Shown here piece by piece: positions 10,196 through 30,409 of a stretch of DNA of 41,248 bases; within the stretch, counting starts at the first letter, position 1, and the number at the start of each line of letters is the position of its first letter. A model generated the notes under the pieces. That model was not told where the DNA came from, searched no databases, and was given only the letters and a program-made list of their open reading frames with translations. Origin of the DNA: Methanosarcinales archaeon Methan_01 (lineage in GTDB: Archaea > Halobacteriota > Methanosarcinia > Methanotrichales > Methanotrichaceae); the NCBI GenBank assembly GCA_001602645.1, contig LUYE01000029.1, positions 1-41,248 of the forward strand. The letters are read 5' to 3'. Made by a program: the position numbers and the translations under genes.

Positions 10196-11458
10196 TTAGT
10201 GTCCATTTGGATGCACCTCTGGATGATACACAAACGCGCCGTGAGTATCTAAGAAGTCCTCAGGCAATCCCTGGAATCTTGTGAGGTATTCGTTATGGAT
10301 CGCCCTTGGATCCAAATCATCGAAACGCTCTGGATGGAACCATTTGGCCAAGTATGCTACGCCCACAAAGTTTCCTTGCAATCCACCAAAGAAGCCAGAA
10401 ACGATCGAATAGACCTTTCCGTTTTCCACTGCGATAACATTTGCCAAGTCTGGACGGTTTATAATCTCGTATCTTGAATCAGACAGTTCAGCTATATCAG
10501 CGCCCACATTGCTGGAAGTACTTCCCTGTTTGACTATGATCTCAGGATTGCGTTCAATCACATACTCTGGATCTACTGAACCCCATAAATATTGGATGTC
10601 GCCAAAAATGTTGTTCCCGCCGGCTGTTGTGATTTTCTCATCATAGGAATATCCTTTACCGCTGCTAGTGTAAGGTTCACTCATTTCCCAGTAGACTTCT
10701 GGTCTATCATCCTCTGAGATTTCATCGACATTCTCTCTTATCGTATTCAACACCCCTTCATAGAAATCGATGTAAACTTCAGATTCAGATCTCTTATCAA
10801 GAATGTATCCAAGCTTTCTCGTTTCGTCTATATGGTTACCTGCCACGTAGAAATCGAAAGCAACTACTGGAACGCCTGAGAGCGTCTTAGCATGCTCTGG
10901 TGCCGCACGTGTATATCCGATCACCAAATCTGGATTTAGGCTGAGTATCGCCTCATAGTCGGGGTTCGTTGACTTTCCAACGTTCTGCAAATTACTGAAC
11001 TCTGGAAAGAACTCATATTCTTTTGCGATATTATCGCAAATACCGACTATTTTATCCTTATCCGCATCGAGCGATCGAATCAGCTCAGGAACATACGGGT
11101 TGAGGGCAACAATCCGATCTACCGGCTTTTTAACAGTTACTATCCTACTTGGTGCGTCAGCATAAGCAGAATCCTTAATCGTAAGCTCTTTTTCTTCACC
11201 TGCTATGATCAGTTCAATCTGACCTATGTCGTCTTCATCTATTCGGCCGTCATAGTTGGCATCAGCCAGCTCGGTAGCCTCGTTCGTTCCGTCTATTACT
11301 CCTTCTACGTACGATATGTCCTCCTCATCTATCGCATCATCCATGTTCGCGTTCCCGAAGATTTCAAGCGTATAATCAGAAGCATCCACTGCCGTGACGA
11401 CCAGCAGCGTAGATGATGCAATCAGCATCATCAAAAAAGAAATAGCGGATGCTTTCAT
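10196..11458 (-). CDS. Exported dockerin-module metal-chelate binding protein (SBP1)
   Basis: The 420-residue protein starts with a signal peptide (about 1-27, cleavage near VDA-SDY). Two EF-hand/dockerin loops follow (GNANMDDAIDEED and DANYDGRIDEDD, within about 35-80). The rest is a BtuF/FepB-type binding domain with the usual opening PVDRIVALNPYVPELIRSL and a C-terminal HPERFDDLDPRAIHNEYL block. Such domains capture iron siderophores, cobalamin, heme or similar chelates; the ligand here is unknown. There is no lipobox after the hydrophobic core and no C-terminal membrane helix, so the dockerin may provide anchoring. Its start lies 1 base after the SBP2 stop, with GAGGTGAG overlapping that stop, so it is the second gene of the SBP2-SBP1 operon. 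Nothing else follows it before MITE copy 1. Confidence 0.88.
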   Translation of the reverse strand: MKASAISFLMMLIASSTLLVVTAVDASDYTLEIFGNANMDDAIDEEDISYVEGVIDGTNEATELADANYDGRIDEDDIGQIELIIAGEEKELTIKDSAYADAPSRIVTVKKPVDRIVALNPYVPELIRSLDADKDKIVGICDNIAKEYEFFPEFSNLQNVGKSTNPDYEAILSLNPDLVIGYTRAAPEHAKTLSGVPVVAFDFYVAGNHIDETRKLGYILDKRSESEVYIDFYEGVLNTIRENVDEISEDDRPEVYWEMSEPYTSSGKGYSYDEKITTAGGNNIFGDIQYLWGSVDPEYVIERNPEIIVKQGSTSSNVGADIAELSDSRYEIINRPDLANVIAVENGKVYSIVSGFFGGLQGNFVGVAYLAKWFHPERFDDLDPRAIHNEYLTRFQGLPEDFLDTHGAFVYHPEVHPNGH

Positions 11459-11459
11459 C

Positions 11460-12689
11460 TCATCTCACCTCCGGATATACAAATACCCCATGCTCGTCCA
11501 AGTCGTAGGCCAATCCTTGGAACCTGGTCAGGTACTCCTGATGGATTGCCTGCGGGTCCAGATCTTCGAATAATTCAGGATAGAACAATTTGGCAAGATA
11601 AGTAACGCCAACAAAGAATGATGGTTTCGTACTGATGCTATCCGACCAAAGAAAAACCTGTCCATTCTGGACCGCTGTCGTCATCTCCCATCCAGCACGG
11701 CTCATGAATGATGACCTCAGCTCTTCAATGTCTTCAGTAGTATCTTTCTCATAGCCTGCATATTTGTTGCCATGATTTACTGATTTTACCATTATATCCG
11801 GGTCTTCGGTTATTACCCATTCAGGATCAATGATTGGATAAGTCCCAAGGAGACCGACCGCTATGTTCAAACCTCCTGCCAGCTTGCACAAGTCGTTTCC
11901 ACCTGAACCGTTGCCAGCGGCCTTCAGCTCGGAGTTCCCTTCCAGATAAGCCCTGACTTTATCCTCTTCAGGTAGCTCACTGACTCGCTCCTGGATTATG
12001 TCGAGATATCCATCATAAAAATCAATGAACTCGTAAGCTTCCTCTGTCCTTCCAAGAAGATAACCGAGCGTTGCTATCTCCTGGGACATCATCTTGGGCT
12101 TGTAGAATCCAAAGCCAACAACTGCCACACGAGGCTCGAGCTTTTCAGCGTATTCTGCTGCACTGAATTCGTAAGCTATGACCAACTCAGGCCCGATTTC
12201 CAGGATCTTCTCGTAATCAGCCTCGCTTCCCGATTTTACAATTGGTAATTTGCTTAAATCCGGGAAAAATACCGCTTTGTCCACCACATTCTGTTCCACC
12301 CCAACGACTCTATCTTCCGCCCCTAGTATTTTTATGGCTTCAGCAGAGGTATGACTAAGTGATACTATGGATTCGATGGGGTACGTCACGGTAATAGTTC
12401 TTCCAGACGAGTCAATAATGGTAAGCTCTGCTTCCTCACCTGCTATGATCAGCTCGATCTGAGCGATGTCATCCTCATCGATCCTGCCATCGTAGTTCGC
12501 ATCCGCCAGCTCTGTAGCTTCATCGGTCCCGGCGATTATACCCCGGACGTATTCTATATCCAACTCATCGATCGTGTCATCCATATTCGCGTTTCCGAAG
12601 ATGCCCAGCGTGTAATCCGACGCAACCGCGGGCATAATAACCAGCATCGTGCAAGCCAGCACCACAAATCCAAAGGCAAATCGATTCAT
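11460..12689 (-). CDS. Exported dockerin-module metal-chelate binding protein (SBP2)
   Basis: First gene of a two-gene operon under the shared SBP promoter. Its 409 residues comprise a signal peptide (MNRFAFGF..., cleavage near AVA-SDY), two calcium-type loops (GNANMDDTIDELD and DANYDGRIDEDD), and a chelate-binding domain beginning near YPIESIVSLSHTSAEA. It is most like SBP11 in the ligand-binding part: both share GNKYAGYEKD and the WSDSI segment, and both lead their operons. They are probably sisters from segmental duplication. The protein ends at FVYPEVR with no anchor. GGATGGTAGCTG immediately precedes the ATG, as in the other operon-leading copies. Confidence 0.88.
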   Translation of the reverse strand: MNRFAFGFVVLACTMLVIMPAVASDYTLGIFGNANMDDTIDELDIEYVRGIIAGTDEATELADANYDGRIDEDDIAQIELIIAGEEAELTIIDSSGRTITVTYPIESIVSLSHTSAEAIKILGAEDRVVGVEQNVVDKAVFFPDLSKLPIVKSGSEADYEKILEIGPELVIAYEFSAAEYAEKLEPRVAVVGFGFYKPKMMSQEIATLGYLLGRTEEAYEFIDFYDGYLDIIQERVSELPEEDKVRAYLEGNSELKAAGNGSGGNDLCKLAGGLNIAVGLLGTYPIIDPEWVITEDPDIMVKSVNHGNKYAGYEKDTTEDIEELRSSFMSRAGWEMTTAVQNGQVFLWSDSISTKPSFFVGVTYLAKLFYPELFEDLDPQAIHQEYLTRFQGLAYDLDEHGVFVYPEVR

Positions 12690-13472: not shown

Positions 13473-14726
13473 TTAGCGTCCATCCGGATACAGCTCTGGA
13501 TGATATACGAAGATTCCATGATTGCTTACATCGAAGTCCAATCCCTGGAAATCCGTCAGATATTCCTGGTGGATTGCCATCGGATCCAGATCCTCAAACA
13601 GATCCGGGTGGAACCACTTCGCCCAGTATGCCATGGCGATGGGATAGTCAAGTCCGTAATTTAGACCACTGTCTATTATATAAACCCTATTGTTCTTTAC
13701 GGCATTGACATCTGCCAACTCAGGACGATTCACGGTATCCTCCCATAACGCCTTGATTATCGATGGATCATCATACTTTAATCCAGCATCGGTCGCCTTT
13801 AGATGTCTAATAATAATATCGGGATTCTTAGTCACGATCTCTTCCGGATCGATCTTAACATTACCTGCATCGATATCAGCGAGTATGTTCCTTCCACCGC
13901 ATAGATCAATCATTTGCTGAGCACCTGATTTAGCACAAAACCCATTGTAAATATCTCGATCTCCACCTCCACTAACATACACTTTTGGTCTTTCGTCATC
14001 AGAAATCGTCTCTGTAAGTGATTTGATTATGTCAATATATTTATCATGAAAATCATCGACATAACAATTTGCCCCATCTTTTTTCCCGAATATGTAACCC
14101 ATTTTCACCAGTTCCTCTATAAAATTTTCTGGTTTATAGAGCATCAGAAGGGCCACTGTAACACCTGGGAGATGTTCAGCAGTCTCAGAAGCTATCGTAT
14201 GTTGAATTACAAAATCAGGATGGACACTAAGTATCGCCTCATAGTCGGGGTTCGTCGCGATACCAACATCTTGCAATTTGCTGAACTCTGGGAAGTAAGC
14301 TTCATCTTGTATAATACTATTGCTGACTCCGACTACTTTATCCTGTGTTTTTAATATTCGTATCGCTTCGGCTGGATAACTCGCAAGCAAAACAACCCGC
14401 TCTACTGGCTTTTTCACCGTAATGAATCTGTCCTCAGAATCTATCAACGTAAGTTCCTTCTCCACATTAAGTATGATCAGTTCTATTTGTGTTAGATCCT
14501 TTTCGTCGATCACGCCATCATAGTTGGCATCTGCCAGCAGGGTCTCTTCGTTTGTTCCAGCGATGATCCCTTCCACGTATGCGATATCGTCTTCGTCTAT
14601 CGTATCGTCCATATTCGCGTTGCCGAAGATTCCCAACGTGTAATCAGATCCAACGGCCGGCATGATGACAAATAGTGTTAATGATGCGAGCAGCATCGAC
14701 ACTAACGAAAATACCGAGATTTTCAT
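13473..14726 (-). CDS. Exported dockerin-module metal-chelate binding protein (SBP3)
   Basis: A 417-residue paralogue: signal peptide to about residue 28 (PAVG-SDY), dockerin loops GNANMDDTIDEDD and DANYDGVIDEKD, then the chelate-binding domain with PVERVVLLASYPAEAIRIL and the C-terminal HPDLFEDLDPMAIHQEYL. Its ligand domain is closest to SBP6: both have GLDYP/GLDYL before the final lobe and a similar CGGRNI/AGGRNI segment. It starts 1 base after SBP4 ends, so it is the second gene of that operon. The cobN remnant lies beyond its stop, where the other duplicated unit has an intact cobN. Confidence 0.88.
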   Translation of the reverse strand: MKISVFSLVSMLLASLTLFVIMPAVGSDYTLGIFGNANMDDTIDEDDIAYVEGIIAGTNEETLLADANYDGVIDEKDLTQIELIILNVEKELTLIDSEDRFITVKKPVERVVLLASYPAEAIRILKTQDKVVGVSNSIIQDEAYFPEFSKLQDVGIATNPDYEAILSVHPDFVIQHTIASETAEHLPGVTVALLMLYKPENFIEELVKMGYIFGKKDGANCYVDDFHDKYIDIIKSLTETISDDERPKVYVSGGGDRDIYNGFCAKSGAQQMIDLCGGRNILADIDAGNVKIDPEEIVTKNPDIIIRHLKATDAGLKYDDPSIIKALWEDTVNRPELADVNAVKNNRVYIIDSGLNYGLDYPIAMAYWAKWFHPDLFEDLDPMAIHQEYLTDFQGLDFDVSNHGIFVYHPELYPDGR

Positions 14727-14727
14727 T

Positions 14728-15972
14728 TTAGCTCACCTCCAGTGGTGGATATACAAATACGGCATCCTTATATACGTCTAAGTTCAAAGTTTTGTGGAAT
14801 TTGTCAAGATATTCTTGGTGGATTGCTACTGGGTCCAAATCTTCGAAAAGCTCGGGGTAGAACCACTTCCCCATGTAAGCGAGGCCTACAAATCTAGATG
14901 GCTTGCCAAGGAAATAACTGCCAAGTACGTAAACGTCTCCGTTTTTCACTGCTGTAACATTAGCCAATTCTTGACGGTTCATAATTTCATCTCTTAGATT
15001 GCTAAGTTCAGCTATATCAGTCGTACTATAAGCACCAAATGGACTTATGTGAATGAGTATTATGTCAGGATCGCGATCAATCACTGCTTCAGGATCCACC
15101 TCGATATTATTGTCCGGATTATCACCAAAAATGGTGTTTCCGCCTGCCATTTCAATATCATAAATGTAACTACTTCCACCACCTAACGTTTTATAACCCT
15201 CAGACGACCTTAATAAGAAGACTTTTGGCCTGTCCTCCTCTCGAATTCCTTCTACTCTTTCTTTGATGATGTCCACCTTTTCTTCGTAGAAATCGATGAA
15301 CTCTTCTGCTTCATCTTTTTTATTAAGAATATACCCAAGTGTTCTTATCTCTTCTATATAGTTGTCATGTTTGTAACAGTCGATGTAAACTACTGTAATA
15401 CCTAAAGATTCAAGCTTATTTGCAAAATCGTTAATCAAATGAGATGTCGAAGTATATATCATGACAATATCTGGTTGTAGGCGTAATATCTTCTCAATAT
15501 CATAATCAGAGCCACCTATGTTTTGTTCCTCGCTAAACTCTGGGAAGAATAACTTCATATTCAACGTCCATGTAGCCACACCTACGATTTTATCCATATC
15601 CAGCTGAATTGCCCGCATCGTTTCGATGTGATGGCTGTGTGTGGTAACGATTCGTTCTATCGGCTTTTTCACTGTTACTATCCTATCCGCAGAGTCAACA
15701 ATTGTAAGCTCTTTCTCGTCTCCCTGTATTATCTGCTCGATCTGAGCGATGTCATCCTCATCGATCGTGCCATCATAGTTGGCATCTGCCAGCTGGGTCT
15801 CTTCGCTCGTCCCATCGATGATCCCTTCTACATATGATATGTCATCCTCGTCTATCGTGTCGTCCATGTTCGCATTGCCGAAGATGCCAAGGGTGTAATC
15901 AGCCGCAACCGCGGGCATAATGATCAGCATCGCGCAAGCCAGCACCACCAATCCAAAGGCCAATCGATTCAT
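14728..15972 (-). CDS. Exported dockerin-module metal-chelate binding protein (SBP4)
   Basis: A clear example of the family plan in 414 residues. The signal peptide covers 1-23 (AVA-ADY). Dockerin loop 1 spans residues 33-44 (ligands N33, N35, D37, T39, D41, D44), and loop 2 spans 63-74 (D63, N65, D67, T69, D71, D74), each followed by a short helix. The chelate-binding domain runs from about 90 to the end. Although VLAC occurs inside the hydrophobic core, the following AMLIIMPAVA argues for ordinary signal peptidase cleavage, not lipidation. It heads the SBP4-SBP3 operon directly downstream of cobN1, with its own copy of the shared promoter and GGATGGTAGCTG just before the ATG. Confidence 0.9.
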   Translation of the reverse strand: MNRLAFGLVVLACAMLIIMPAVAADYTLGIFGNANMDDTIDEDDISYVEGIIDGTSEETQLADANYDGTIDEDDIAQIEQIIQGDEKELTIVDSADRIVTVKKPIERIVTTHSHHIETMRAIQLDMDKIVGVATWTLNMKLFFPEFSEEQNIGGSDYDIEKILRLQPDIVMIYTSTSHLINDFANKLESLGITVVYIDCYKHDNYIEEIRTLGYILNKKDEAEEFIDFYEEKVDIIKERVEGIREEDRPKVFLLRSSEGYKTLGGGSSYIYDIEMAGGNTIFGDNPDNNIEVDPEAVIDRDPDIILIHISPFGAYSTTDIAELSNLRDEIMNRQELANVTAVKNGDVYVLGSYFLGKPSRFVGLAYMGKWFYPELFEDLDPVAIHQEYLDKFHKTLNLDVYKDAVFVYPPLEVS

Positions 15973-16145: not shown

Positions 16146-19100
16146 CTAAGCCCCCAGCACCTTCGACATCTTCTCCTTCCAGGCGGCCACCTCGTCCGCG
16201 GTCACGACATCGATCGCTCCGCCCTGGAACTCGCCCCCCACGTCTCCCATCCGCTCTTCCATCCACCCCTCGATCTCGAGGTAGAGCGACTTCAGGGCGT
16301 CGAGAACCTCAGGATCGGCCTTCCACAATCCCCTCTGCTCCGCCTCCAGGAGCCTTCTGCCCATCTCCTCCATCGCCCAGGGGTTGTTCTCCTGGAAGAA
16401 CTCTCGGTTATCCTCGTCCATGATGAAGGTCTTTGCGATCTCGTCGAAGATCCAGTCGTCCACCTCCGAGGTCGTAGCCTCCCAGCCGTAGACCCGGCCC
16501 ACCCGCTTGGAGATGTCGCCAGCGCCCTTGTAGCCGTGCTCCTTCATCCCCTCGATCCACTTGGGGTTGAGGAGCTTGGTCCTGACCACGCGCCTCACCT
16601 CGTCGGCCAGGTCTCGGACCTCCACATGCTCCGGCTCCCTGGTGTCGCCGTAGTAGGCCTTGACATCCCTTCCGGAGATGTGCCTCGCCGCCGCGGTCAT
16701 GCCGCCATGGGTTCCGAAGTAGCAGCAGCATCCGAATAGGTCGTACTCGTCGCTGACGACCTTGTTGTAGGTCACGTCCACCGACTTGAGAGAGTTTACA
16801 AACTGCTGATGAGACTCCTTACCCGGGACGCCTTTACCGTAGGCGTAGCCGTTCCAGTAGACGAAGATGTCCGAGAGGTCCTTCTCATCCTTCCAGGCGC
16901 TGGCGTAGACTGCGAGGTTTGTTCCCGACTGGTAGGTGCCGGGCTTGCTGGCGAAGATCCGCAGCGTAGCCTCGCGCCAGTCCTTCGCAGTACCGTTCTC
17001 CAGGTTCTCGAGCGTATGCTTTCGCACAGAGTTCATCTCAAGAGGCTCATCAAGGGCGGCCACCGCCTGGACCGCCTCGTCGATAGTATCGATGCAGTTG
17101 GGGAAGTTGTCCCGCGTGATCCCCGAGACGCGAACGGTCAGATCGATCCGAGGGCGCCCCAGCTCCTCCAGTGGGATGACCTGGAAGCCCTTCAGCCGAC
17201 CGTTGGACTGCCATACGGGCTCAGTTCCCAAAAGGAAGAGCATCTGGGCCATGTCCTCTCCGTCTGCCCACATGATGTCGCTACACATCCAGTAAAAGGC
17301 GATATTCTCAGGATGGCGACCTTCCTCCTCCAGGTGCTTGGCGATTACCGCTTCTCCCAGCTTTTGGCCCACCTTCCAGGCGGTCTTCGTAGGGACACGG
17401 TATGGATCCAGTGAGTAGAAATTCCGACCGGTGGGCAGAACGTCGTCCCGACCTCGGGTGATCAGGCCGCTGGGGCCAGCCTCGACGTAGCCTCCGTCCA
17501 TGCCGTTCAGCAGAGCCTCGATCTCCGTAGAGGCCTCCATCCGAGACTGGAGGTCCAGGACCTTCTCTCGGATCGCCTCGAGCCTCAGCTCGTAACCCGC
17601 GACGGAAAACCCCAGGACCTCATCAGGCCGGGCACCGTTCCCCTCCAGATAGATCTTGATGAGCTTCTTGCAGAGGCCGTCGATCGTCTCCAGAAGCTGG
17701 CCGTGAGATCTGCCGTAGAGCTCGTCGACGGCGCCCTGGTCGGCGAGAAGCTCCTCCATGGAGAAGCCCATCATGGCGGCGACGGTGCCCCGCAGGGGAA
17801 CGCCGTTCCCCTCAAACCTCATCACGGAGTTGATGAACTCGACCCGCTTCTCGCCTTCGGGAAGCTGGCCGAATATGTGCATGCCGGAATCTATCTGGGT
17901 GTTTCTCACGCGGCTCAGCTCGTTGTGGGCCTTGGATACTATCTCCTCCACCCGCATGTCCTCGGTGAGCTTCATGCCTTTGTCGAGGTTGGCGGCCTTG
18001 ATGGCATCGATGAGCAGGTGCCTCAGCTCGTGGGAGCGTCCGTGGTCGTGCTTCGCCGTTTCGTACTCGCCGAGGAGCCGGTCCACCTCCAGGAGCTCAT
18101 CGTAGAGCCCCGACTCGGTCATGACGGTCTGCATATGATCCACCAGGACGGCATAGCTCCGCCTTTTGGCGATGGTCCCCTCGGGCGGGTTGTCGGCGTT
18201 GTAGATGTATAGATGGGGGATCGTGCCGATGCATATGTCAGGATAACAGTTTCTGGAGAGGCCCACCCCTTTGCCGGGCAAAAACTCCAGGTTGCCGTGG
18301 GTGCCCACGTGGATCAGAACATCTGCCCCGAATACCTCTTCTAAGTAGCGGTAGGTGGCCATGTATTGGTGGGTGGGCGGCACGTCCGGATCGTGTAGTA
18401 TTTTGCAGACCTGGCCGTCGCAACGCGTGCCGGCGCAGCCTCTCTTGGGCTGGACTGCGACGACGCAGTTGCCGTACAGGACTCCAGTGACGACGATCTT
18501 TCCCTGATAGAGCATGGCGGCGGGAATGCCGTCCTTCTCCTCTCCGGGAGGGTTTCCCCAGGCCTCACAGACCCGATCTCTTACCTGAGGTGTGAGAGTG
18601 CTGAACCACTTCACATACTCCTCCTTGGTCTGATAGGCAAGAACGCCGCCCTTGGCCACGATCTCCTCGATGGGGGTCCATCGGAACTCGGAGATGGCCT
18701 TCCGGTCCATGATCGTCTCGATCAGCTCTTTACCCGTCTCGGGGATGTCTTCCAGGGAGTACCCGGCCTCGGCCATCTTGTTCATGATGAGGGCCACGCT
18801 CTCGATGGTATCCAGATGGGCTCCTCCGCCTACGGCCGCCTCTACGGAGGCGCAGGGGTTGTTGTGGAGTATGAAGGCCACCTTCCTCTCGGAGGCGGGT
18901 TTTTTGGCCAAGGCCACCCATTTCTTGACCCGTCCCGCCAGCTTCACGCAGCGCTCGGGTATCGGCGTCCTCTCATCGTATTCCCCCCGCTTGGACCCCG
19001 CTCCTACAATGATCGGCTCGATCATGCCCTCAAATTCGGGCATGGCCACGGACCAGCCGATGTCGTTGGATAGACCGATGCCGTTCTCCCACTCGTCCAG

Positions 19101-21227: not shown

Positions 21228-22453
21228 ACGGTCACCTCCAAGGGCGGATATACAAAGACACCCTTTTCATCCAGGTCGAAGTCCGATCCCAGATACTCTG
21301 TCAAATATTCCTGATGTATCTCCTGTGGATTCAAATCGACGAATAGATCTGGATGAATAATTTTCGCCCAATGTACAATACCTAAAAGATAATCAAGCCC
21401 GTAATGGAGGTTTACATCTACCATGTAAACCTTCCCATCTTTCACCGCAGTGATATCAGCAAATTCAGGGCGGCTCATGATTTCATCCCTCAAATCCGCC
21501 AACTTTGAAGGATCTTCCACCTCGTATCCAGCATCAGTATACGCGCCTACGATGATGACGTCAGGATTCCTCTCCAGGATCGCTTCAGGATCTACAATAG
21601 GAATTCCTTCGAGATCGGAAAAGATATTTCTCCCACCGGCCAGATTAATCGATTGATGGGCGCCTGTGGTGTGACCATAAGTCTTGTAAGGCTTGTTGCA
21701 CTCTACATAGACCTTTGGTCTCTCCTCGTCCGACAACTCTTCTGTCCGCGATTTGATGAGACCAATATATTTTCCATGGAAATCATCGATGTAGCGACTT
21801 GCATCATCTCTTTTTCCAAAAATATAACCAAGCATCATCAATTCATCAGTAAGATTCTCTGGTTTAGTAAAGGATAAGTCAACAACGGTGACGCTGTCTG
21901 GAAGGGTCTCAGCAAGTTCCGAGACGGTTGGCGACCACCATGTAATGAGTAAATCTGGATCGAGACTGATAATCGCCTCAAGGTCTGGATCTTTGGCCAT
22001 GCCAAGCGCCGGTAGGGTGCTGAGTCCGGGTAGATATGTATACTCAGTAATAGGATTGGACACACCAACTATTTTATTCTGGACCCCCAACATCTGTAAA
22101 GCATCAGCACAATACTCATTCAATAATATAACACGCTCAACGGGCTTGCTTACTGTCACAATTCGATCCGTATAATCGATGATCGTAAGCTCCTTCTCCT
22201 CACCTGCTATGATCAACTCTATCTGAGCGATGTCCGCCTCATCGATCTGGCCGTCATAGTTGGCATCTGCCAGCTCTGTAGCGTCATTTATTCCTTCGAT
22301 TATTCCCTCCACGTGCGCTACATCATCCTCGTCTATCGTGTCATCCATATTAGCATTGCCAAAGATGTCGAGCGTGTAATCATCTGCAACCGCAGGCATA
22401 ATAGCCAACGAAATGCATGCCAGCACCGCCAATCCAAAAGCCAATCTATTCAT
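21224..22453 (-). CDS. Exported dockerin-module metal-chelate binding protein (SBP6)
   Basis: First gene of the SBP6-SBP5-cobN1 operon, 409 residues. Signal peptide 1-23 (AVA-DDY), loops GNANMDDTIDEDD and DANYDGQIDEAD, then the binding domain with PVERVILLNEYCADALQML. Its ligand domain resembles SBP3, supporting duplication of the whole unit. It ends FVYPPLEVTV and has no anchor. The shared promoter lies about 65-85 bases upstream. The ribosome-binding region is slightly altered here (GATGATATCTG instead of GGATGGTAGCTG). Confidence 0.88.
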   Translation of the reverse strand: MNRLAFGLAVLACISLAIMPAVADDYTLDIFGNANMDDTIDEDDVAHVEGIIEGINDATELADANYDGQIDEADIAQIELIIAGEEKELTIIDYTDRIVTVSKPVERVILLNEYCADALQMLGVQNKIVGVSNPITEYTYLPGLSTLPALGMAKDPDLEAIISLDPDLLITWWSPTVSELAETLPDSVTVVDLSFTKPENLTDELMMLGYIFGKRDDASRYIDDFHGKYIGLIKSRTEELSDEERPKVYVECNKPYKTYGHTTGAHQSINLAGGRNIFSDLEGIPIVDPEAILERNPDVIIVGAYTDAGYEVEDPSKLADLRDEIMSRPEFADITAVKDGKVYMVDVNLHYGLDYLLGIVHWAKIIHPDLFVDLNPQEIHQEYLTEYLGSDFDLDEKGVFVYPPLEVTV

Positions 22454-22678: not shown

Positions 22679-23965
22679 TCAGGAAGCACCGTGGCTTTGA
22701 GGGACGTATCGATCAGGAATTCCCGCTAGGCCACCATCAATTTCTATCGGAGGATACACGAACACACCATGGTCATCCAAGTCATAGTCTATGCGTTGGA
22801 ATCTATTAAGGTATTCTTTGTGAATCGCTTCAGGGTCTAAATCTTCGAAGAGCTCTGGATGTAATAACTTTGCCAGATATGATATGCTTATAATCTGTTG
22901 TATCGAATGTACAATATCTGAAGCGACACAATAACAATTTCCGTTCCTGATTGCTTTGACATCCTTCAGTTCAGGACGGTTAATAACGCCGTCTCTTGTT
23001 GCGTCTACTCCTGCCATATCATCAATGCCATAGCCAGAAGGATCGGCACTCATCGCACCGATAAAAATGAACTCGGGATTTTCCGTAATAACCCACTCTG
23101 CATCCACCACCCCAGAAAGTTTGTCGGCAGCGATATTTGTTCCACCTGCCATTTCACATACATAACCCTCAACTGAATCTTTGTTTCTGGTATAATACTC
23201 GCTATAATGAGGGAAAGCCTCTATGAAAATCGTCGGTTTGTCCTCCTCAGAAAGTCCTTCAATTCTACTATGGATCATCTCTATATGTTCCCCATGCCAT
23301 TCACAGAACTCCTCGGCCTCAGCCCTCCTATCGAGAATATATCCAAGTTTTTTTAACTCCTCTTCCATGTTACTTCCCCGGGAGTTTATTCGAACAACAG
23401 CGACGTTAGGTGCTATCTCTTCATCAAGTTCAGATTTCAATGAATAGTATCCAAGGACCATATCTGGTTCTAAAGCAAGTATTGCTTCAGCATCTGGCTC
23501 TAAATAATCTCCAACTGTTGGTAGCTTGGACATCACTGGTAGAAGTACATATTCTTCTGGAAGGCTTGAATCTATGCCTACCACTTTCTCTTCGGCTCTA
23601 AGTACCCTCACCGCGTCAGCCTGTGAATCTCCAAGAACAACTACTCTTTCCACAGGCTTTTTAATTGTTACATCTCCGCCATTGCTATCTACAATAGTAA
23701 GCTCTTTCTCGCCATCAGCAATGATCTGCTCTATCTGGGCGATGTCGCCCTCGTCGATCTGGCCGTCATAATTGGCATCTGCCAGCTGGGTCTCTTCATT
23801 TGTTCCGTCGATTATTCCTTCTAAGTACGTCACATCATCCTCGTCTATCGTGTCGTCCATGTCTGCGTTGCCGAATATTTCAAGGGTGTAATCAGCTGCA
23901 TCCGCAGCCATAATGGCCAACGACGCGCATGACATAATTATCAATACAAAGGTCAATCGATTCAC
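22679..23965 (-). CDS. Exported dockerin-module metal-chelate binding protein (SBP7)
   Basis: A single-gene unit of 428 residues. I place the start at GTG (23963-23965): VNRLTFVL then aligns with the MNR start of the paralogues, and GGATGGTAGCT stands at the same distance; a frame from 23986 would run through that ribosome binding site. Signal peptide near ADA-ADY, loops GNADMDDTIDEDD and DANYDGQIDEGD, then the binding domain (PVERVVVLGDSQADAVRVL). The C-terminus carries about 18 extra residues after FVYPPIEI, unlike any sibling, perhaps from read-through of a lost stop. It has its own promoter copy. Confidence 0.86.
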   Translation of the reverse strand: MNRLTFVLIIMSCASLAIMAADAADYTLEIFGNADMDDTIDEDDVTYLEGIIDGTNEETQLADANYDGQIDEGDIAQIEQIIADGEKELTIVDSNGGDVTIKKPVERVVVLGDSQADAVRVLRAEEKVVGIDSSLPEEYVLLPVMSKLPTVGDYLEPDAEAILALEPDMVLGYYSLKSELDEEIAPNVAVVRINSRGSNMEEELKKLGYILDRRAEAEEFCEWHGEHIEMIHSRIEGLSEEDKPTIFIEAFPHYSEYYTRNKDSVEGYVCEMAGGTNIAADKLSGVVDAEWVITENPEFIFIGAMSADPSGYGIDDMAGVDATRDGVINRPELKDVKAIRNGNCYCVASDIVHSIQQIISISYLAKLLHPELFEDLDPEAIHKEYLNRFQRIDYDLDDHGVFVYPPIEIDGGLAGIPDRYVPQSHGAS

Positions 23966-24028
23966 AGCTACCATCCTCCTTACCATACTTAGTCACTAAT
24001 TAGTATGATTAGGTATGAATTATGCCCA

Positions 24029-24061: not shown

Positions 24062-24141
24062 AGGAACTCCCTGGGGGTCGCAGCAGCCATTCGCGAGGCC
24101 AGAAAGGTGAAAACCGAGGGGTATATTTCGGCGTTTAGCTG
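24062..24141 (+). pseudogene. Possible short coding remnant
   Basis: A GC-rich island inside an AT-rich gap reads RNSLGVAAAIREARKVKTEG and a few more residues to a stop on the plus strand. The composition is like a buried helix of a conserved protein and unlike the flanks. No start codon or domain is recognisable, and it overlaps the end of the radical SAM gene by a few bases. It may be chance. Confidence 0.15.
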
Positions 24142-25388
24142 AATCGTTCGCGACAACTCCGTAGAGTATTGCTACCTAAGGGAGTTGTCTTTATTTCCCG
24201 ATCATCTCGATTTATTAATCCTTCTTTCTCTAGCTCACAGATCTGATCTGGGAATATTTGTTCTGGTAATACGCCAAATCTTTTTAGAAATACTGTTTTA
24301 TCTACGGCTGAGCTCAACCCTCTCGACATAAAACGCTTCATAAGCTGGTCGTCTGATAAACGTTTATTCATAGATATGGGCAAAGCTCCTCCCTTGATGG
24401 ATTCGATGTAAGATCCCAATTCATCCGTATTTCTAAAGCTATATTTTTCTAATAGGCTGAAAAACCAATTGGTTATGCCTAGACCCAAGCCTTCATGTTG
24501 ATATTTATAGAATAAGTCATAGTATCTGCTTTTTTTCCCAGGCAAAGTGAATCCTGATGAATATTGTTGTTGATAGCCACCGTCCTTTAAGATGTCAAGA
24601 GCGACGTTACACATGTCGTCAGCAATTTTACTTTCTGGCATCGGCGGAAGCACACCAGATTGTAACTCTTTAGCCAGCTTCAAGTTCGGATACAAATGAA
24701 ACCTGAATATGCTTATATTGTCGACGCCCAACTCGATTGCTTTGAGAAGATCACTCTCCCATGAGTGCGTATCTTGGCCCGGCAAATTATACATAAGATC
24801 TATTCGGATGGCTTCGCAACCTAATTTCTTTGCCTGCAAAATTGTTTCTGCTACCACATGGCTGCTGTCGGTACGATTTAGGTTTTTCCTAATGATGTTG
24901 TCAAACGTCTGCACGCCGATATATAGGCGACTTAGACCGCAATCTAATAGCCTGTTAATCTTATGGGCATCGAGGTTGTGCGTTGTGCTTTCTACCGTCA
25001 GCTCCATATCTGCATTAAAATTAAAGCTATCTTTGCAGGTCTGTATGAGCACCTTCAACTCATCAGAGGAAAGCGTGGTGGGTGTTCCACCATGTAGGTA
25101 AAGCGCACCAAAATCACTTGACTCAATATATTTCATCCCGGACCAAAGTCTTATTTCCCCCTTCAGAGCCTGAAGATAGTTTCGCAACGCTTCATGGGTC
25201 TTAAAAAACCTTTTAGCGTTGCAAAATGAGCAAATTGAATCACAGAAGGGCACTGTTACGTGAATAATCCCTTCGTCTTTTCTGCAATCTTCTCTTCCCA
25301 AAAGAGCTACGAATTGATCCAGATCAGTGCAAGTTGTATCAGAAGCCAATAGAGGAAACAGCGTGGAATTGGTACAGTCCGCGTTCAT
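24135..25388 (-). CDS. HemW/HutW-like radical SAM protein
   Basis: About 417 residues with a radical SAM cluster motif CX3CX2C in PFCDSICSFC (about 48-56), the SAM-binding GGTP (YLHGGTPTTLS), and a coproporphyrinogen-oxidase-like layout ending in a winged-helix-like C-terminal part. Relatives include HemW (heme chaperone) and HutW/ChuW (anaerobic heme-opening methyltransferase). Assignment within this group is not possible by eye, but heme or other tetrapyrrole as substrate fits the neighbourhood. It is the last gene of the SBP11-SBP8 operon. I prefer the ATG at 25388 since GGGAG lies 6 bases upstream; an ATG at 25424 overlapping SBP8 is also open. The gene is clearly AT-richer than cobN, suggesting separate acquisition. 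Confidence 0.83.
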   Translation of the reverse strand: MNADCTNSTLFPLLASDTTCTDLDQFVALLGREDCRKDEGIIHVTVPFCDSICSFCNAKRFFKTHEALRNYLQALKGEIRLWSGMKYIESSDFGALYLHGGTPTTLSSDELKVLIQTCKDSFNFNADMELTVESTTHNLDAHKINRLLDCGLSRLYIGVQTFDNIIRKNLNRTDSSHVVAETILQAKKLGCEAIRIDLMYNLPGQDTHSWESDLLKAIELGVDNISIFRFHLYPNLKLAKELQSGVLPPMPESKIADDMCNVALDILKDGGYQQQYSSGFTLPGKKSRYYDLFYKYQHEGLGLGITNWFFSLLEKYSFRNTDELGSYIESIKGGALPISMNKRLSDDQLMKRFMSRGLSSAVDKTVFLKRFGVLPEQIFPDQICELEKEGLINRDDREIKTTPLGSNTLRSCRERFS

Positions 25389-25413
25389 ATTCATCTCCCG
25401 TAAATACCCCGAT

Positions 25414-26655
25414 TCAAGCTGCATCCGTTTCAGGATATGAGAAGATCAAATCCGGGCACTCCAATACTAAGATATCACTCAAATACTCTCGGTAAGCCGC
25501 TACGGGATCTGCATCGAATTCTGGGTGAAGCATCTTCGTCCAAAACAAATATCCTACAATTCCATCAGGCCCTTCCATCACCTCATTGCTGATCAAATAT
25601 ACACGTCCATCTTTGACGGCCTTCAAATATTCCCAGCCATCGCGGTTTATTACGCTGTTAACCAATGATTCTGGGGTTTCTGTACTATTCCAACCCCACT
25701 CCACCTCAGAACTCATGACATATTTGATAATAACATCAGGATCTTCGTTAATCACCCACTCACTATCAACATGGGGATAGGAGATTTGAAGGATATCAGC
25801 AATATTTTTACCGCCGACCATCGATAAACCAATATCGGCCTTTGTGCCGGTGCCATAGGTGCTTATATCTCCTGGGCCACTGTACGCAGTCTCTAAAAAA
25901 GTTCTCGGCTTTTCATCTTCGCTCAGCTCGCAGACGAACTCATCTATCATGACTTTATATCGTTCATTCCAGATAGAGTATTTTTTAGCGTTATCTCTTT
26001 CATCCAGAAGGTAGCCCAGCTTCTCAATCTCTTCGGTTATGATGCTTGGGTTAGTAAATTCGAGTGCTATCACTGGAATTCCGAAGTTATTCAGGTTCTC
26101 TTCGACTTCAGATATCGGCGGCCAATTAGCATAACTTATGACCAGATCTGGATCAAGAGCGGCAATAGCTTCATAATCTCCTACCTTCCAATCGCCTACT
26201 GACGGCAGATCAGACAGATCTGAGAAATAATAATCTTTTTTCTTTATAATATTGGATACGCCTGCAAGTTTATTCTCCGATCCGAGAATCCTAATCGCTT
26301 CAGCAGCATGCCCGCTTACGACGATTATAGTTTTCACGGGTTTTTCGATAGTAAGTGTCCTGTTGGCAGAATCGACGATTGTTAGTTCAGACTCTGTCCT
26401 GTCTATGATCAGCTCAATCTGGGCGATGTCATCCTCATCGATCACGCCGTCGTGTTTGGCGTCTGCCAGCTCAGTCTCTTCGTTCGTACCCTCGATGATC
26501 CCTTCTACGTACGCGATGTCACTCTCGTCTATCACATCGTCCATGTTCGCGTTGCCGAAGATGCTGAGCGTGTAATCAGATGCATTCACATGCATAATTT
26601 CCGGTGCAGTGAATGACGCAAGAATCATTAGACTAAAAAGATAAATAATTCTCAT
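25414..26655 (-). CDS. Exported dockerin-module metal-chelate binding protein (SBP8)
   Basis: Fourth SBP of the long operon, 413 residues. Signal peptide to about 25 (VNA-SDY). Loop 1 is GNANMDDVIDESD. Loop 2 reads DAKHDGVIDEDD, so the usual Asn at the third position is Lys; this may weaken calcium binding there. The binding domain starts PVKTIIVVSGHAAEAIRIL. The C-terminus is diverged (HPEFDADPVAAYREYLSDI) and lacks the FEDLDP motif. The start follows the SBP9 stop directly, with GGAGG inside the SBP9 coding end. The radical SAM gene follows. Confidence 0.87.
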   Translation of the reverse strand: MRIIYLFSLMILASFTAPEIMHVNASDYTLSIFGNANMDDVIDESDIAYVEGIIEGTNEETELADAKHDGVIDEDDIAQIELIIDRTESELTIVDSANRTLTIEKPVKTIIVVSGHAAEAIRILGSENKLAGVSNIIKKKDYYFSDLSDLPSVGDWKVGDYEAIAALDPDLVISYANWPPISEVEENLNNFGIPVIALEFTNPSIITEEIEKLGYLLDERDNAKKYSIWNERYKVMIDEFVCELSEDEKPRTFLETAYSGPGDISTYGTGTKADIGLSMVGGKNIADILQISYPHVDSEWVINEDPDVIIKYVMSSEVEWGWNSTETPESLVNSVINRDGWEYLKAVKDGRVYLISNEVMEGPDGIVGYLFWTKMLHPEFDADPVAAYREYLSDILVLECPDLIFSYPETDAA

Positions 26656-27918
26656 TTAGAGGTCCTCCGTCTCTATCAACGGGTAAGCATATACTCCCTT
26701 GAAGTCTACGCCAAGGAACTTTTGTAACCATTCTTCATGAACAGCCACTGGGTCCATATCTTCGAAGAGCTCAGGATGTAACCACTTGGCAACATAGGAG
26801 CGAAAAATGCTTGGATGTATTGACGATGCGTCGCTGGTAATGACGTAAACTCTTCCAGACTCAATTGCATCGATTTGATCAAACCCTGGACGACGCATGA
26901 TATCGTCTATCTTATCCTCCATTGAGCTCATATCAGTTACATCATAACCGCAAGGGAGGTACGATGAGTAAGTCATATGAAGAATTACTTGTGGGTCCCT
27001 GACGATCACTTCTTCAGGGCCTACCTCAAGATCATCTTCGAGGTCATCAAAGATGTCGACACCACCACAAGGGACGATGGAACCTGTGATGCTGCTCGTT
27101 GGTTCACCCAGCCTGTAATCCCGATAGTTCTCAGCATAAATAAGAGGCTTCTCTTCCTCTTCCAGGTCCTTGACTCTCTCTTCTATGAAATCGAGATGTT
27201 GCTGTTCGAAATTGATGAGTTCTTCAACTCTTTCTTGCTTATTTAACATCCATCCCAAATTTCTTACTTCGCTTGCATACTTTTCAGGTACATAAAAGTC
27301 CATCTGAACTATTGGAATGCCTACAGAATCCAATATATCCCTATACTCTGAATAGTCATAACACGCATAAGCAAGTACAACATCTGGTTCCAGCTCGATG
27401 AGCTTTTCCATATCCCACTCAGTACTTTTTCCTATCCCAGGTGTATCCTCTATTAAGGCCCTAAATTCACCTCGCGTCTTTGCACCATCAGTAATCGCAA
27501 CGATATTATCCGCCTCTCCAAGGGCACAAAGCATATAGGGACCATAGGTACCACCAAGCGCAGCTATAGTCGTTATCGGCATCGAGACCGTCACCGGATC
27601 TTCAGTATATGCCACGGGATGTTTAAGATATTGAACGAGCGTAAGCTCCTTCTCCTCACCAGCAATGATCAGCTCTATCTGAGCGATGTCCGCCTCATCG
27701 ATCTGGCCGTCGTAATTGGCATCTGCCAGCTGGGTTTCTTCGTTCGTTCCGTCGATTATTCCTTCTAAGTACGTCACATCATCCTCGTCTATCGTATCAT
27801 CCATGTTGGCGTTGCCGAAAATGTCGAGCGTGTAATCGGATGCAATCGCTGGTGTGACAACCATCAAGGCTGATGATAGAATAAGCATCGTCAAAAATGA
27901 GAATACGGATGATTTCAT
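26656..27918 (-). CDS. Exported dockerin-module metal-chelate binding protein (SBP9)
   Basis: A 420-residue paralogue: signal peptide near AIA-SDY, loops GNANMDDTIDEDD and DANYDGQIDEAD. The linker to the binding domain is unlike the others: TLVQYLKHPVAYTEDPVTVS replaces the usual short 'IVDSADRIVTVKKP' strand, so the first lobe may be shaped differently. The C-terminal HPELFEDMDPVAVHEEWL block is kept. It directly abuts SBP8 and SBP10 without gaps. GAGGTGAGCTGA precedes its ATG. Confidence 0.87.
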   Translation of the reverse strand: MKSSVFSFLTMLILSSALMVVTPAIASDYTLDIFGNANMDDTIDEDDVTYLEGIIDGTNEETQLADANYDGQIDEADIAQIELIIAGEEKELTLVQYLKHPVAYTEDPVTVSMPITTIAALGGTYGPYMLCALGEADNIVAITDGAKTRGEFRALIEDTPGIGKSTEWDMEKLIELEPDVVLAYACYDYSEYRDILDSVGIPIVQMDFYVPEKYASEVRNLGWMLNKQERVEELINFEQQHLDFIEERVKDLEEEEKPLIYAENYRDYRLGEPTSSITGSIVPCGGVDIFDDLEDDLEVGPEEVIVRDPQVILHMTYSSYLPCGYDVTDMSSMEDKIDDIMRRPGFDQIDAIESGRVYVITSDASSIHPSIFRSYVAKWLHPELFEDMDPVAVHEEWLQKFLGVDFKGVYAYPLIETEDL

Positions 27919-29172
27919 TCAGCTCACCTCCGTTGGCGGATATACAAACACTCCATGCTCTCCCAGGTTGTAATCCAGCCCCTGGAACCTGGCCAGGTAC
28001 TCCTGATGGATCACCTGGGGGTCAAGATCCTCGAAAAGATCCGGATGGAACCATTTTGCCAGGTAGCCTACGGCCAGGAAGTGTTTATTGCCTGTAAGCT
28101 CCTTGATGATTACGTATACTTTGTCATCGTCGACCGCAGAGACCTGGGACATCTCAGTTCGTCCAACCATTTCATCATGCATATCTTTCAGCCACTGTGG
28201 ATCATCGACGTTGTATCCATATTTGCCCCGGGCGTAACCTTGCACGACTATGATCTCTGGATCTCGCACCATCACCTCTTCTTTGTCTACAACTTTGTAG
28301 CCTGTTACATCTCCGAAGATGTCGTTGCCTCCAGCCTCAACCACTATCTGATGGGTGACAGTTCCCACACCACCCACGTTGTAGGGATCTCCAAAACCCT
28401 CGAAGTAAACTCTGGGTTTCTCGTCCTCGGGGATCTCTTCCACTTTATCTTTGATGTGATTCAGGCATTTGTTGTAGAACTCGGTGAAATCGTCTGCATT
28501 CGTTTCTTTGTCGAGAATGAAACCTAATTTGCAGACCTCATCGAGATAGGTCTCCGGCTTGAAACAATCGAAACGTACCACTTTAAAGCCGGCATTTTCA
28601 AGCTGACTTTGAACCTCATCACAAGATGTTACAAATTGGGTTGCATATAAAAACACGATATCTGGATCGGCCTCTATCACCTTCTCAACGTCGGGTTCCC
28701 ATCCAGTGCCCACATCTAACGTGGTTTGGAACTCCGGAAAGAAATCCCCCTTGGATGTAACACTCGACGATACCGCAACGATGGATTCTTTATCCATATC
28801 GAGGGAACGCATTACTTCGAGAATGTTTGCGTTTAGCACGATAACTCTTCTCAGAGGTTTGTTTATCGTGACGGATCGCCCCGTGGTGTCTATTATTGTG
28901 ATCTCATCTTCGTCATCGTTCACGATCTGAGTTATCAGAGTTACGTCATCCTCGTCGATCACGCCATCATAGTTGGCATCTGCAAGCTCTGTAGCTTCGT
29001 TCGTTCCTTCGATTATTCCTCGTACGTACGCTATGTCATCCTCGTCTATCGTATCATCCATGTTCGCATTGCCGAAGATGCCCAGCGTGTAATTATCTGC
29101 AACCGCAGACGTGACGATCAGTAGCGTAGATGATGCAAGCAACATCATCAAAGAAAATATAGATAATTTCAT
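27919..29172 (-). CDS. Exported dockerin-module metal-chelate binding protein (SBP10)
   Basis: A 417-residue member with signal peptide near AVA-DNY, loops GNANMDDTIDEDD and DANYDGVIDEDD, and a very acidic linker (NDDEDEITI) before the binding domain (PLRRVIVLNANILEVMRSL). It ends HPDLFEDLDPQVIHQEYL and FVYPPTEVS. The GNDIFGD segment resembles SBP1 and SBP4, pointing to a shared subgroup. Second gene of the operon led by SBP11, 1 base after its stop. Confidence 0.88.
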   Translation of the reverse strand: MKLSIFSLMMLLASSTLLIVTSAVADNYTLGIFGNANMDDTIDEDDIAYVRGIIEGTNEATELADANYDGVIDEDDVTLITQIVNDDEDEITIIDTTGRSVTINKPLRRVIVLNANILEVMRSLDMDKESIVAVSSSVTSKGDFFPEFQTTLDVGTGWEPDVEKVIEADPDIVFLYATQFVTSCDEVQSQLENAGFKVVRFDCFKPETYLDEVCKLGFILDKETNADDFTEFYNKCLNHIKDKVEEIPEDEKPRVYFEGFGDPYNVGGVGTVTHQIVVEAGGNDIFGDVTGYKVVDKEEVMVRDPEIIVVQGYARGKYGYNVDDPQWLKDMHDEMVGRTEMSQVSAVDDDKVYVIIKELTGNKHFLAVGYLAKWFHPDLFEDLDPQVIHQEYLARFQGLDYNLGEHGVFVYPPTEVS

Positions 29173-29173
29173 T

Positions 29174-30409
29174 TTAGCTCACCTCCAGTGGCGGATATAC
29201 AAACACCCCATGCTCGTCCAGGTCGTAGTCCAGTCCCTGGAATCGGGTCAAGTACTCCTGATGGATCGCCTGGGGGTCCAGATCCTCGAATAGGTCGGGA
29301 TAGAGCCATTTGGCCAGATAAGTTACGCCGACAAAGAACGATGGCTTAGCGTTGATGCTATCCGACCAAATGAAAACTCTTCCGTTCTGCACTGCATCGA
29401 TCATCTGCCACCCGATCCGGTTCATGAAAGATGCTCTAAGCTCATCTATGTCTTCAGTGGAGTCTTTCTCATAGCCAGCGTATTTGTTGCCGTGGTTTAC
29501 TGATTTCACCATCACCTCTGGGTTTTCAGTTATCACCCATTCGGGATCGACAACTGGATAGGACCCCACCAGATCGATGGCGATGTTCACACCACCAGCC
29601 AGCTCGCACAGCTCGTTGGTGCCCGAGCCGTTGCCAGAGGTCGTATAATCGTTGTTCTGCTCCAGGTAGACCCTGACCCTCTCCTCCTCTGGCAGCTCAC
29701 TGACCCTCTTCTGGATCGTGTTCAGATATCCCTCGTAAAAATCGATGAACTCATAAGCCCTCTCGGGCACCCCCAGGATGTAGCCTAGCATTGCGACCTC
29801 CTGGGACATTCTCTTTGGCTGGTAATATCCGAGGCCGACGACTTTCACATGGGGCTCGAGCTTTTCGGCCCATCCTGCTGCGCTGGATTGATAGCCTATG
29901 GCCAGATCAGGCTTGATCTCGAGGACCTTCTCGTAATCTACCTCAGATCCGGACTTTACAATGGGTAGCTTGCTTAACTCAGGGAAGTATATCGGTTTGT
30001 CTGCTATATACTGTTCGATCCCTACAATTCGATCTTCTGCTCCTAGCGATTTTATAACTTCTGCAGCGCTTTGACCAAGGGCAACTACGGACTTTATCGG
30101 GCACTTTAGCGTAACCGTCCTATCAGCAGAATCGATGATGGTAAGCTCTTTTTCCTCTCCTGCTACGATCATCTCTATCTGCGAGATGTCGTTCTCGTCG
30201 ATCACGCCGTCGTAGTTCGCATCTGCCAGCTCTGACGCCTCGTTCGTCCCATCGAGGATTCCTCGCAGGTACTTGATGTCGTACTCATCTATCGTATCAT
30301 CCATGTTCGCGTTGCCGAAGATGCCGAGGGTGTAATCATCTGCAACCGCGGGCATAATGACCAGCATCGTGCACGCCAGCACCATCAATCCAAAGGCCAG
30401 TTGATTCAT
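29174..30409 (-). CDS. Exported dockerin-module metal-chelate binding protein (SBP11)
   Basis: Operon-leading paralogue, 411 residues: signal peptide 1-23 (AVA-DDY), loops GNANMDDTIDEYD and DANYDGVIDEND. Its ligand domain is nearly that of SBP2 (GNKYAGYEKDSTEDIDELR, WSDSINAKPSFFVGVTYLAK in parts). It follows the cobN2 gene by about 210 bases, just as SBP4 follows cobN1, with the shared promoter between. The operon continues SBP10, SBP9, SBP8 and the radical SAM gene with essentially no spacing. Confidence 0.89.
   Translation of the reverse strand: MNQLAFGLMVLACTMLVIMPAVADDYTLGIFGNANMDDTIDEYDIKYLRGILDGTNEASELADANYDGVIDENDISQIEMIVAGEEKELTIIDSADRTVTLKCPIKSVVALGQSAAEVIKSLGAEDRIVGIEQYIADKPIYFPELSKLPIVKSGSEVDYEKVLEIKPDLAIGYQSSAAGWAEKLEPHVKVVGLGYYQPKRMSQEVAMLGYILGVPERAYEFIDFYEGYLNTIQKRVSELPEEERVRVYLEQNNDYTTSGNGSGTNELCELAGGVNIAIDLVGSYPVVDPEWVITENPEVMVKSVNHGNKYAGYEKDSTEDIDELRASFMNRIGWQMIDAVQNGRVFIWSDSINAKPSFFVGVTYLAKWLYPDLFEDLDPQAIHQEYLTRFQGLDYDLDEHGVFVYPPLEVS

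Follow-up and report, generated by a model that had tools for sequence, protein, structure and literature searches.

Secreted binding proteins of a Methanotrichaceae archaeon carry a constrained dockerin module in a genome where no cohesin was found

Eleven genes on a Methanotrichaceae contig encode secreted substrate-binding proteins (SBPs) predicted to begin with a type I dockerin, in a genome in which profile searches found no cohesin. Dockerins are defined by cohesin binding, and the Methanothrix group comprises important acetate-using methanogens living inside a tubular sheath. Our reading as a whole, which we regard as evenly balanced, is that these proteins serve FecCD-type importers, catching tetrapyrroles or metal chelates, while the dockerin holds them on an extracellular partner that is not a cohesin.

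The eleven open reading frames (409-435 aa each) lie on the minus strand within positions 10196-30409 of the window, i.e., the whole stretch of 41,248 nucleotides analysed. This interval also includes a CobN gene and a HemN/HutW-like radical SAM gene, outside the eleven. The features are as follows:

10196-11458, minus strand: dockerin-SBP 1 (PF01497); dockerin at about 11174-11374, from the dockerin alignment
11460-12689, minus strand: dockerin-SBP 2 (PF01497 and PF00404 places)
13473-14726, minus strand: dockerin-SBP 3 (profile matches); dockerin at about 14442-14642
14728-15972, minus strand: dockerin-SBP 4 (profile matches)
16146-19961, minus strand: CobN/ChlH-type class I chelatase large subunit (CobN1), signal peptide not seen (PF02514 1302 bits; NF004646 2206 bits)
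19977-21227, minus strand: dockerin-SBP 5 (PF00404 24.9 bits, the best in the genome); dockerin at about 20949-21149
21224-22453, minus strand: dockerin-SBP 6 (profile matches); dockerin at about 22178-22378
22679-23986, minus strand: dockerin-SBP 7 (profile matches); dockerin at about 23690-23890
24135-25424, minus strand: HemN/HutW-like radical SAM protein, reaching no NCBIfam cut-off (TIGR00539 157 bits against 205; TIGR04107 211.8 bits against 400, so that a ChuW/HutW haem-degrading enzyme is not supported)
25414-26655, minus strand: dockerin-SBP 8 (profile matches, dockerin alignment), loop 2 Asn to Lys; dockerin at about 26374-26574
26656-27918, minus strand: dockerin-SBP 9 (profile matches)
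27919-29172, minus strand: dockerin-SBP 10 (profile matches); dockerin at about 28891-29091
29174-30409, minus strand: dockerin-SBP 11 (AlphaFold models, see below); dockerin at 30134-30334
30621-34322, minus strand: second CobN/ChlH-type chelatase (CobN2; PF02514 1242 bits; NF004646 1778 bits)
34530-35474, minus strand: Gate-like membrane protein (PF07670 below cut-off), recurring in related loci L151, L157, L171 and C70
35533-36426, minus strand: NifH-like reductase (PF00142; passes NF009701, falls short of the CfbC and NifH models)
36423-37688, minus strand: nitrogenase-like component 1 subunit B (PF00148; NifD/K/E/N cut-offs not reached)
37672-39204, minus strand: nitrogenase-like component 1 subunit A (PF00148)
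39273-40412, minus strand: SBP remnant lacking both signal peptide and dockerin, its C-terminus apparently frameshifted (reading of the open reading frame)
40490-41230, minus strand: SBP truncated at the N-terminus by the contig end (open reading frame and profile match)

Both chelatases pass NF004646 (CobN cobaltochelatase subunit; cut-off 1468 bits). All eleven SBPs open with a signal peptide of Sec-like appearance (assigned by eye), followed by two 12-residue EF-type loops whose starts lie 30 residues apart and then by a Peripla_BP_2 (FepB/BtuF-type) domain. This domain passes the PF01497 cut-off throughout (E about 1e-21 to 1e-32) and has the metal-chelate SBP fold; in the full-length AlphaFold model of dockerin-SBP 11 it is confident over residues 87-410. 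The original prediction had given all eleven this architecture together with the loop 2 pattern DxNxDGxIDxxD; the architecture held, and the pattern is exact in ten, the exception being the copy at 25414-26655, which reads DAKHDGVIDEDD. It had also described the proteins as having neither a lipobox at the cleavage site nor a C-terminal helix, both of which we confirmed; the signal peptide of a few copies has an unconserved Cys in its hydrophobic core.

Single members match the Pfam dockerin family weakly: the first scores 19.4 bits against a Dockerin_1 cut-off of 22.9, and of the 41 places found genome-wide 3 pass the PF00404 gathering score, with many others a few bits below. Across 131 related modules, 114 match Dockerin_1 at E up to 0.01, and the PDB profile matches of the module are headed by dockerins. 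The full-length model, built on only 11 alignment rows, was uninformative on this region (residues 1-83 at pLDDT below 50, the dockerin not packed confidently on the SBP domain). The dockerin of 29174-30409 was remodelled alone with 131 rows, which gave a pLDDT of 93.4 and helices at residues 17-28 and 47-58, one after each loop. The best 32 matches of this model in a PDB fold search were all dockerins (TM about 0.65-0.77), with fold-match probabilities of 0.94-1.00 for the first 30. The models and these dockerin-only matches rule out that the EF-type loops are part of the binding domain and bear out the earlier claim of a separate fold; as modelled, the N-terminal module is a type I dockerin standing outside the binding domain.

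The genome holds 41 dockerin-SBPs, far exceeding chance occurrence of the module. Two 12-residue loops with D/N ligands at positions 1, 3, 5, 9 and 12 are found in 40 of its copies and in 178 copies from the family. Across the 40 copies, the calcium-loop ligand positions are invariant or almost so, and the constrained non-ligand positions include E13, Y18, G25, Q48 and E50. Amino acid-changing differences are far fewer in the dockerin than in the SBP domain (pN 0.17 vs about 0.49), while pS is close to saturation in both (0.74 and 0.78-0.80, respectively), giving a dockerin pN/pS of 0.23. The dockerin is therefore under strong purifying selection, and synonymous differences almost as high as those of the SBP domain argue against recent gene conversion as the cause of the near-identical dockerins. 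Furthermore, it is carried by SBPs from widely separated branches of the SBP tree. We infer that it most likely acts as a functional, calcium-loaded docking tag.

The original prediction had envisaged a cohesin-bearing surface or sheath protein as the docking partner. No cohesin was found in the genome with PF00963, a 26-sequence archaeal cohesin profile or an ANME-1 cohesin profile, nor a scaffoldin with several cohesins, and profile searches of 50 Methanotrichaceae genomes returned a cohesin in one. We regarded weak cohesin-like matches in four genomes (G009, E 0.002 with PF00963; G015, G016 and G040) as noise, and a 1523-aa protein near the permease on contig C83 proved not to be a cohesin, bearing DUF11 repeats and ending in a prenyltransferase/cyclase-like region. 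Table 2 of a 2017 paper (PMC5244752) lists 17 dockerins, 0 cohesins, 0 IPR008965 domains and 0 PGF-CTERM for Methanosaeta concilii GP6. As such, a cohesin-bearing partner in this organism is not supported. The prediction was thus borne out as to the module, its loops forming a separate dockerin rather than part of the binding domain, and not as to the cohesin.

Tethering by dockerin nevertheless looks real as an SBP strategy, as had been proposed. In ANME-1 contigs L169, L190 and L195, cohesin genes stand directly upstream of homologous dockerin-SBPs, which makes tethering likely there. L169, whose cohesins lie at 3234-5382, carries, in order, FecCD, an ATPase, a small membrane protein, a two-cohesin protein, a cohesin protein bearing a PGF-type anchor at its C-terminus and three dockerin-SBPs. 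The ANME-1 genomes hold 10-19 cohesin modules, including proteins with two or more. In ANME-1 the dockerin would probably plug into these neighbouring cohesins, including a membrane-anchored one next to the permease. At positions 10, 11, 18, 21 and 22 of repeat 1, ANME-1 dockerins have M, R, R, L and R, whereas those of Methanothrix have mostly E, a variable residue, G, a variable residue and G; the calcium loops are kept and the recognition face differs.

The reported lack of a permease gene nearby holds within the contig, but not as a real absence: none is seen near the eleven because the contig ends at 41248, and FecCD permeases lie among the same kinds of genes on this genome's contigs C34, C70, C75 and C83. 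Sister loci here and on named Methanothrix contigs carry FecCD, ATPase, CobN and Nfl genes with the same SBPs, so that the FecCD-type importer (permease and ATPase with SBPs) is found in the sister loci rather than in the window. The genome totals are 69 binding-protein places, 41 with dockerin, and about ten strong FecCD permease matches. The SBPs would accordingly form a large paralogous set of secreted binding proteins for FecCD-type ABC importers. SBPs with no dockerin, or with a single EF-type loop, occur in the same loci and are likewise unanchored, a condition common to dockerin-free SBPs of this genome. The dockerin is thus not needed to account for retention, which weakens the idea that it substitutes for a membrane anchor here.

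With the cohesin missing in Methanotrichaceae and the recognition face changed, the tag most likely holds the SBPs on a different extracellular partner. This may be a non-cohesin surface protein, e.g., an Ig-like sheath cap or an S-layer protein; inspection by eye of the Methanothrix loci gave no recurrent extracellular neighbour as a candidate, the recurring proteins being permease, ATPase, CobN, Nfl and Gate. Perhaps the partner sits on the Methanothrix surface, with the sheath a guess drawn from published work (PMC11576556). We would go further only tentatively, and with more doubt than conviction, to suggest that Methanotrichaceae have re-purposed the dockerin, up to forty-odd SBPs per genome using the changed face to plug into a receptor other than a cohesin, possibly the sheath caps, which would make the sheath a nutrient-capture surface. 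If true, this would to our knowledge be the first case of a dockerin system whose partner does not belong to the cohesin family. Two publications on the Methanothrix sheath and transcriptome contain no mention of dockerins.

Three other accounts of the module compete with a non-cohesin partner. The family may possess a true cohesin so diverged that the SBPs form an ordinary cohesin-dockerin array: the fold is canonical and strongly constrained, the ANME-1 homologues adjoin cohesins, cohesins can diverge far and escape sequence profiles, and Methanothrix sheath proteins bear caps, Ig-like and carbohydrate-binding-like, to which no function is assigned (PMC11576556). We consider this rather unlikely, given that the three profiles gave no match here, yet PF00963 exceeds its cut-off in 116 of 238 genomes from the class, that the published M. 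concilii table pairs its dockerins with neither cohesins nor IPR008965 domains, and that the recognition face is unlike that of cohesin-paired relatives. It is also improbable that the dockerin has no protein partner and, retained from an ancestor with cohesins, serves the binding protein in calcium-dependent stabilisation, folding or self-association. Such a role would suit both the failure of the three profiles to find a cohesin and the coexistence of unanchored SBPs with no dockerin or one loop, but the constraint on the dockerin is three times that on the domain to be stabilised, the non-ligand positions above included, and the module rides on very distant SBP branches; the unpacked full-length model points the same way, weakly in view of its shallow alignment. 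That the dockerins are vestiges of cohesin loss accords with the absence of cohesins across the family and is very hard to believe beside their low pN/pS and ligands intact in practically all of the 40 genomic and 178 family copies.

As to cargo, the nearest solved relatives of the SBPs bind metal chelates, B12 or haem. The same loci here repeatedly contain CobN, nitrogenase-like, ChlI/D-like and CbiK genes, and the first two do so in relatives too. Over 50 genomes, the number of CobN genes follows that of dockerins (Spearman 0.67, with no correction for kinship). From gene neighbours and fold relatives we take tetrapyrroles or metal chelates to be the probable cargo; CobN-type chelatases and nitrogenase-like reductases might then process them in the cell. 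The closest fold matches, i.e., YiuA iron-siderophore binding proteins, HI1472 (molybdate) and CeuE, make siderophores or other metal chelates with coincidental neighbours a real possibility, if not a probable one, and one compatible with any docking model; the recurrence of the tetrapyrrole-type genes and the tracking of CobN number speak against it.

Many constrained dockerins without a cohesin offer a clean test for an alternative dockerin receptor, with the ANME-1 loci, where cohesins, permease and dockerin-SBPs stand side by side, as matched control. The arrangement bears on how sheath-dwelling acetate-using methanogens keep secreted SBPs near membrane importers, and on the roles of archaeal CobN and nitrogenase-like proteins.

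Among known systems, the HmuS haem de-chelatase and CobN superfamily (PMC12583661) likewise has CobN-type proteins adjoining haem or chelate importers; archaeal CobN function is called unclear there and is a prediction from the genes here. The M. concilii GP6 count (PMC5244752) records the same orphan state of dockerins without cohesins, as a bare table entry with host proteins unnamed. Closer are the ANME SBPs of Chadwick et al. 2022 (PMC9012536), which join a dockerin to SBPs of importers for metals and peptides and whose homologues we found in the ANME-1 contigs; the types named there are OppA and TroA, not this Peripla_BP_2 array, and ANME have cohesins and scaffoldin-like proteins, whereas Methanotrichaceae have none recognisable. 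Clostridial type I dockerins (1OHZ, 2VN5, 5LXV) differ in that here the module is N-terminal, has a binding protein and not an enzyme as its fusion partner, has acidic recognition positions and has no cohesin in the genome, but they share its fold, its two calcium-loop repeats and its conserved ligand order.

The eleven open reading frames of the original prediction are all present on the minus strand, and 11/11 encode a signal peptide followed by a module of 55 residues that holds two calcium-type loops, and then a Peripla_BP_2 domain. The window is the complete contig C23 of a 2.61 Mb host draft genome, and its minus strand also carries two CobN-type chelatases, a HemN/HutW-like radical SAM protein, a Gate-like membrane protein and a nitrogenase-like H/B/A set. 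A further substrate-binding protein (SBP) gene at 39273-40412 lacks signal peptide and dockerin, and its C-terminus reads as frameshifted, pointing to either a pseudogene or a sequencing error. Single modules score close to or under the Pfam cut-off (PF00404), therefore module identity was put to three further tests. PF00404 was matched by 114 of 131 modules, and the best hits of a PDB search with the profile of these 131 were mostly dockerins. Modelled alone, the module reached a pLDDT of 93.4, and dockerins made up all of the top 32 structural matches; meanwhile, in the full-length model the binding domain is complete at residues 87-410 and the first 83 residues fall outside it. By sequence and predicted structure, the N-terminal module is a dockerin.

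The host genome holds 41 dockerin-SBPs, one of them cut by a contig end, and 69 Peripla_BP_2 places against 12 for the importer permease FecCD (ten strong); in the related loci examined, every dockerin found sits on a Peripla_BP_2 SBP. Across 780 pairs from the 40 complete copies, median pN was 0.17 in the dockerin versus about 0.48-0.51 across the SBP domain, with pS near saturation in both (0.74 versus 0.78-0.80), therefore the dockerin is under purifying selection; the same near-saturated pS alongside low pN argues against recent gene conversion. The calcium ligands are nearly invariant among copies. On a tree of 106 SBPs, dockerins occur in two far-apart parts and the N-terminal state (dockerin, single loop or none) switches at least 13 times. 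One tag on varied binding domains is the pattern that would be expected of a common docking function. SBPs on four other host contigs (C37, C8, C4, C45) bear a single EF-type loop (GDxDGDxIVSDEEL) at the dockerin position and may be half-dockerins minus loop 2.

As the original prediction said, none of the eleven proteins has a cleavage-site lipobox or a C-terminal helix. Most dockerin-free SBPs of the host genome likewise lack both, so that the missing anchor is, as judged from these proteins, a general trait common to SBPs with and without dockerin. This agrees with a published M. concilii count, which gives zero PGF-CTERM and zero PEF-CTERM domains (PMC5244752). The claim that no permease lies nearby holds within the window, where there is no FecCD gene, but not beyond it: FecCD permeases accompany dockerin-SBPs on host contigs C34, C70, C75 and C83 and on Methanothrix contigs L148, L150, L151 and L159, therefore the lack is a contig-edge effect. 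Most of these loci have an ATPase, with CobN and nitrogenase-like genes in varying combination.

A cohesin-bearing surface or sheath protein had been proposed as the partner. Neither the PF00963 profile nor an archaeal cohesin profile (26 sequences, E up to 10) matched in the host genome, and an ANME-1 cohesin profile gave nothing convincing across the 50 genomes of the order. PF00963 exceeded its cut-off in 116 of the 238 genomes of the class and in one of the order's 50 (G047), which had no dockerin match. IPR008965 is the carbohydrate-binding superfamily to which cohesins belong. The published M. concilii GP6 table agrees with the host-genome negatives, listing 17 dockerins, 0 cohesins and 0 IPR008965 domains (PMC5244752).

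A scan of 84,980 genomes with the SBP alignment, seeded with two dockerin peptides, matched almost only Methanotrichaceae, together with ANME-1/Methanophagales contigs and one Methanosarcinales-labelled contig (QMVO01). By the topology of the SBP tree, the ANME-1 SBPs would fall inside Methanothrix diversity. Their loci provide a matched control, in which homologous dockerin-SBPs occur with cohesins present: at L169, L190 and L195 cohesin genes lie directly upstream, and three cohesin-positive genomes hold 19 (L169), 14 (L190/L173) and 10 (L191) cohesin modules. The order at L169 is FecCD permease, ATPase, small membrane protein, two-cohesin protein, then a cohesin protein with a C-terminal membrane anchor of the PGF type, as identified by eye, and finally three dockerin-SBPs. 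The natural reading is that in ANME-1 dockerin and cohesin would tether SBPs beside their permease. With permease, ATPase, two cohesin proteins and three dockerin-SBPs united at L169:345-9522, this locus can serve directly as a system in which to test dockerin-tethered import.

In repeat 1, six ANME-1 modules share M10, R11, R18 and L21, with R22 in most, while 178 Methanothrix-type modules have mostly E10, G18 and G22 with positions 11 and 21 variable. The Methanothrix-type modules are also the more acidic group, at a mean net charge of -11 against -8 for ANME-1. By eye, the L191 dockerin, with cohesins in its genome, has the ANME-1 face and the L175 dockerin, with none, the Methanothrix face. 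This difference would fit a change of partner, as a correlation over few lineages. Methanothrix sheath proteins bear Ig-like and carbohydrate-binding-like caps. Among the sheathed ANME-1-group genomes shown in the same work are QENH01 and QMVO01 (PMC11576556), whose record sets also contain dockerin-SBPs; therefore the sheath, as a putative partner, is a lead and a reasonable first place to look.

Dockerin-SBP fusions were already known from ANME archaea (PMC9012536), and a published table (PMC5244752) had given the number of orphan dockerins in M. concilii. The Peripla_BP_2 dockerin array, with its scale, constraint and chelatase context, the ANME-1 cohesin-permease locus and the changed recognition face have no description in the accessible literature and are apparently new. 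Two 'Bacteroidales bacterium' contigs with Methanothrix-type dockerin-SBPs (L149, L183) are probably misbinned, as probably are three labelled 'Methanocellaceae UBA148' (L163, L176, L185), two of which have CobN pieces that share 92-95% identity with those of the window.

The closest folds to the SBP domain were YiuA (iron-siderophore) and HI1472 (molybdate); CeuE, BtuF and ShuT-type haem binders ranked lower. CobN, which passes NF004646, and nitrogenase-like proteins recur as neighbours of dockerin-SBPs, and single loci of the host genome add a ChlI/D-like protein and CbiK. CobN and dockerin numbers correlate across the 50 genomes (Spearman 0.67, kinship ignored). We consider, with moderate confidence, that the likely cargo is tetrapyrroles or related metal chelates. 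What CobN proteins do in methanogens has been described as unclear (PMC12583661). At least three nitrogenase-like H/B/A sets occur in the host genome, each among SBPs:

window 35533-39204, minus strand, nitrogenase-like H/B/A set
C34:60432-64066 (L093), nitrogenase-like H/B/A set
C75:7038-10613 (L097), nitrogenase-like H/B/A set

The window set passed no cut-off of the NifDK/EN and CfbC models. At L092:7011-7940 a cobalt chelatase of the CbiK type, which appears to carry a signal peptide, adjoins an SBP and a FecCD permease. CobN open frames about 1420-1950 aa long recur across many Methanotrichaceae genomes. One such protein, of 1746 aa (L222:4464-9704; G000:C83:32464-37704), lies near NifH-like, DUF2162 and MotA/ExbB genes and comprises a signal peptide, a PQQ-type beta-propeller, the CobN domain and a C-terminal membrane helix, a layout that recalls the membrane-bound de-chelatase HmuS.
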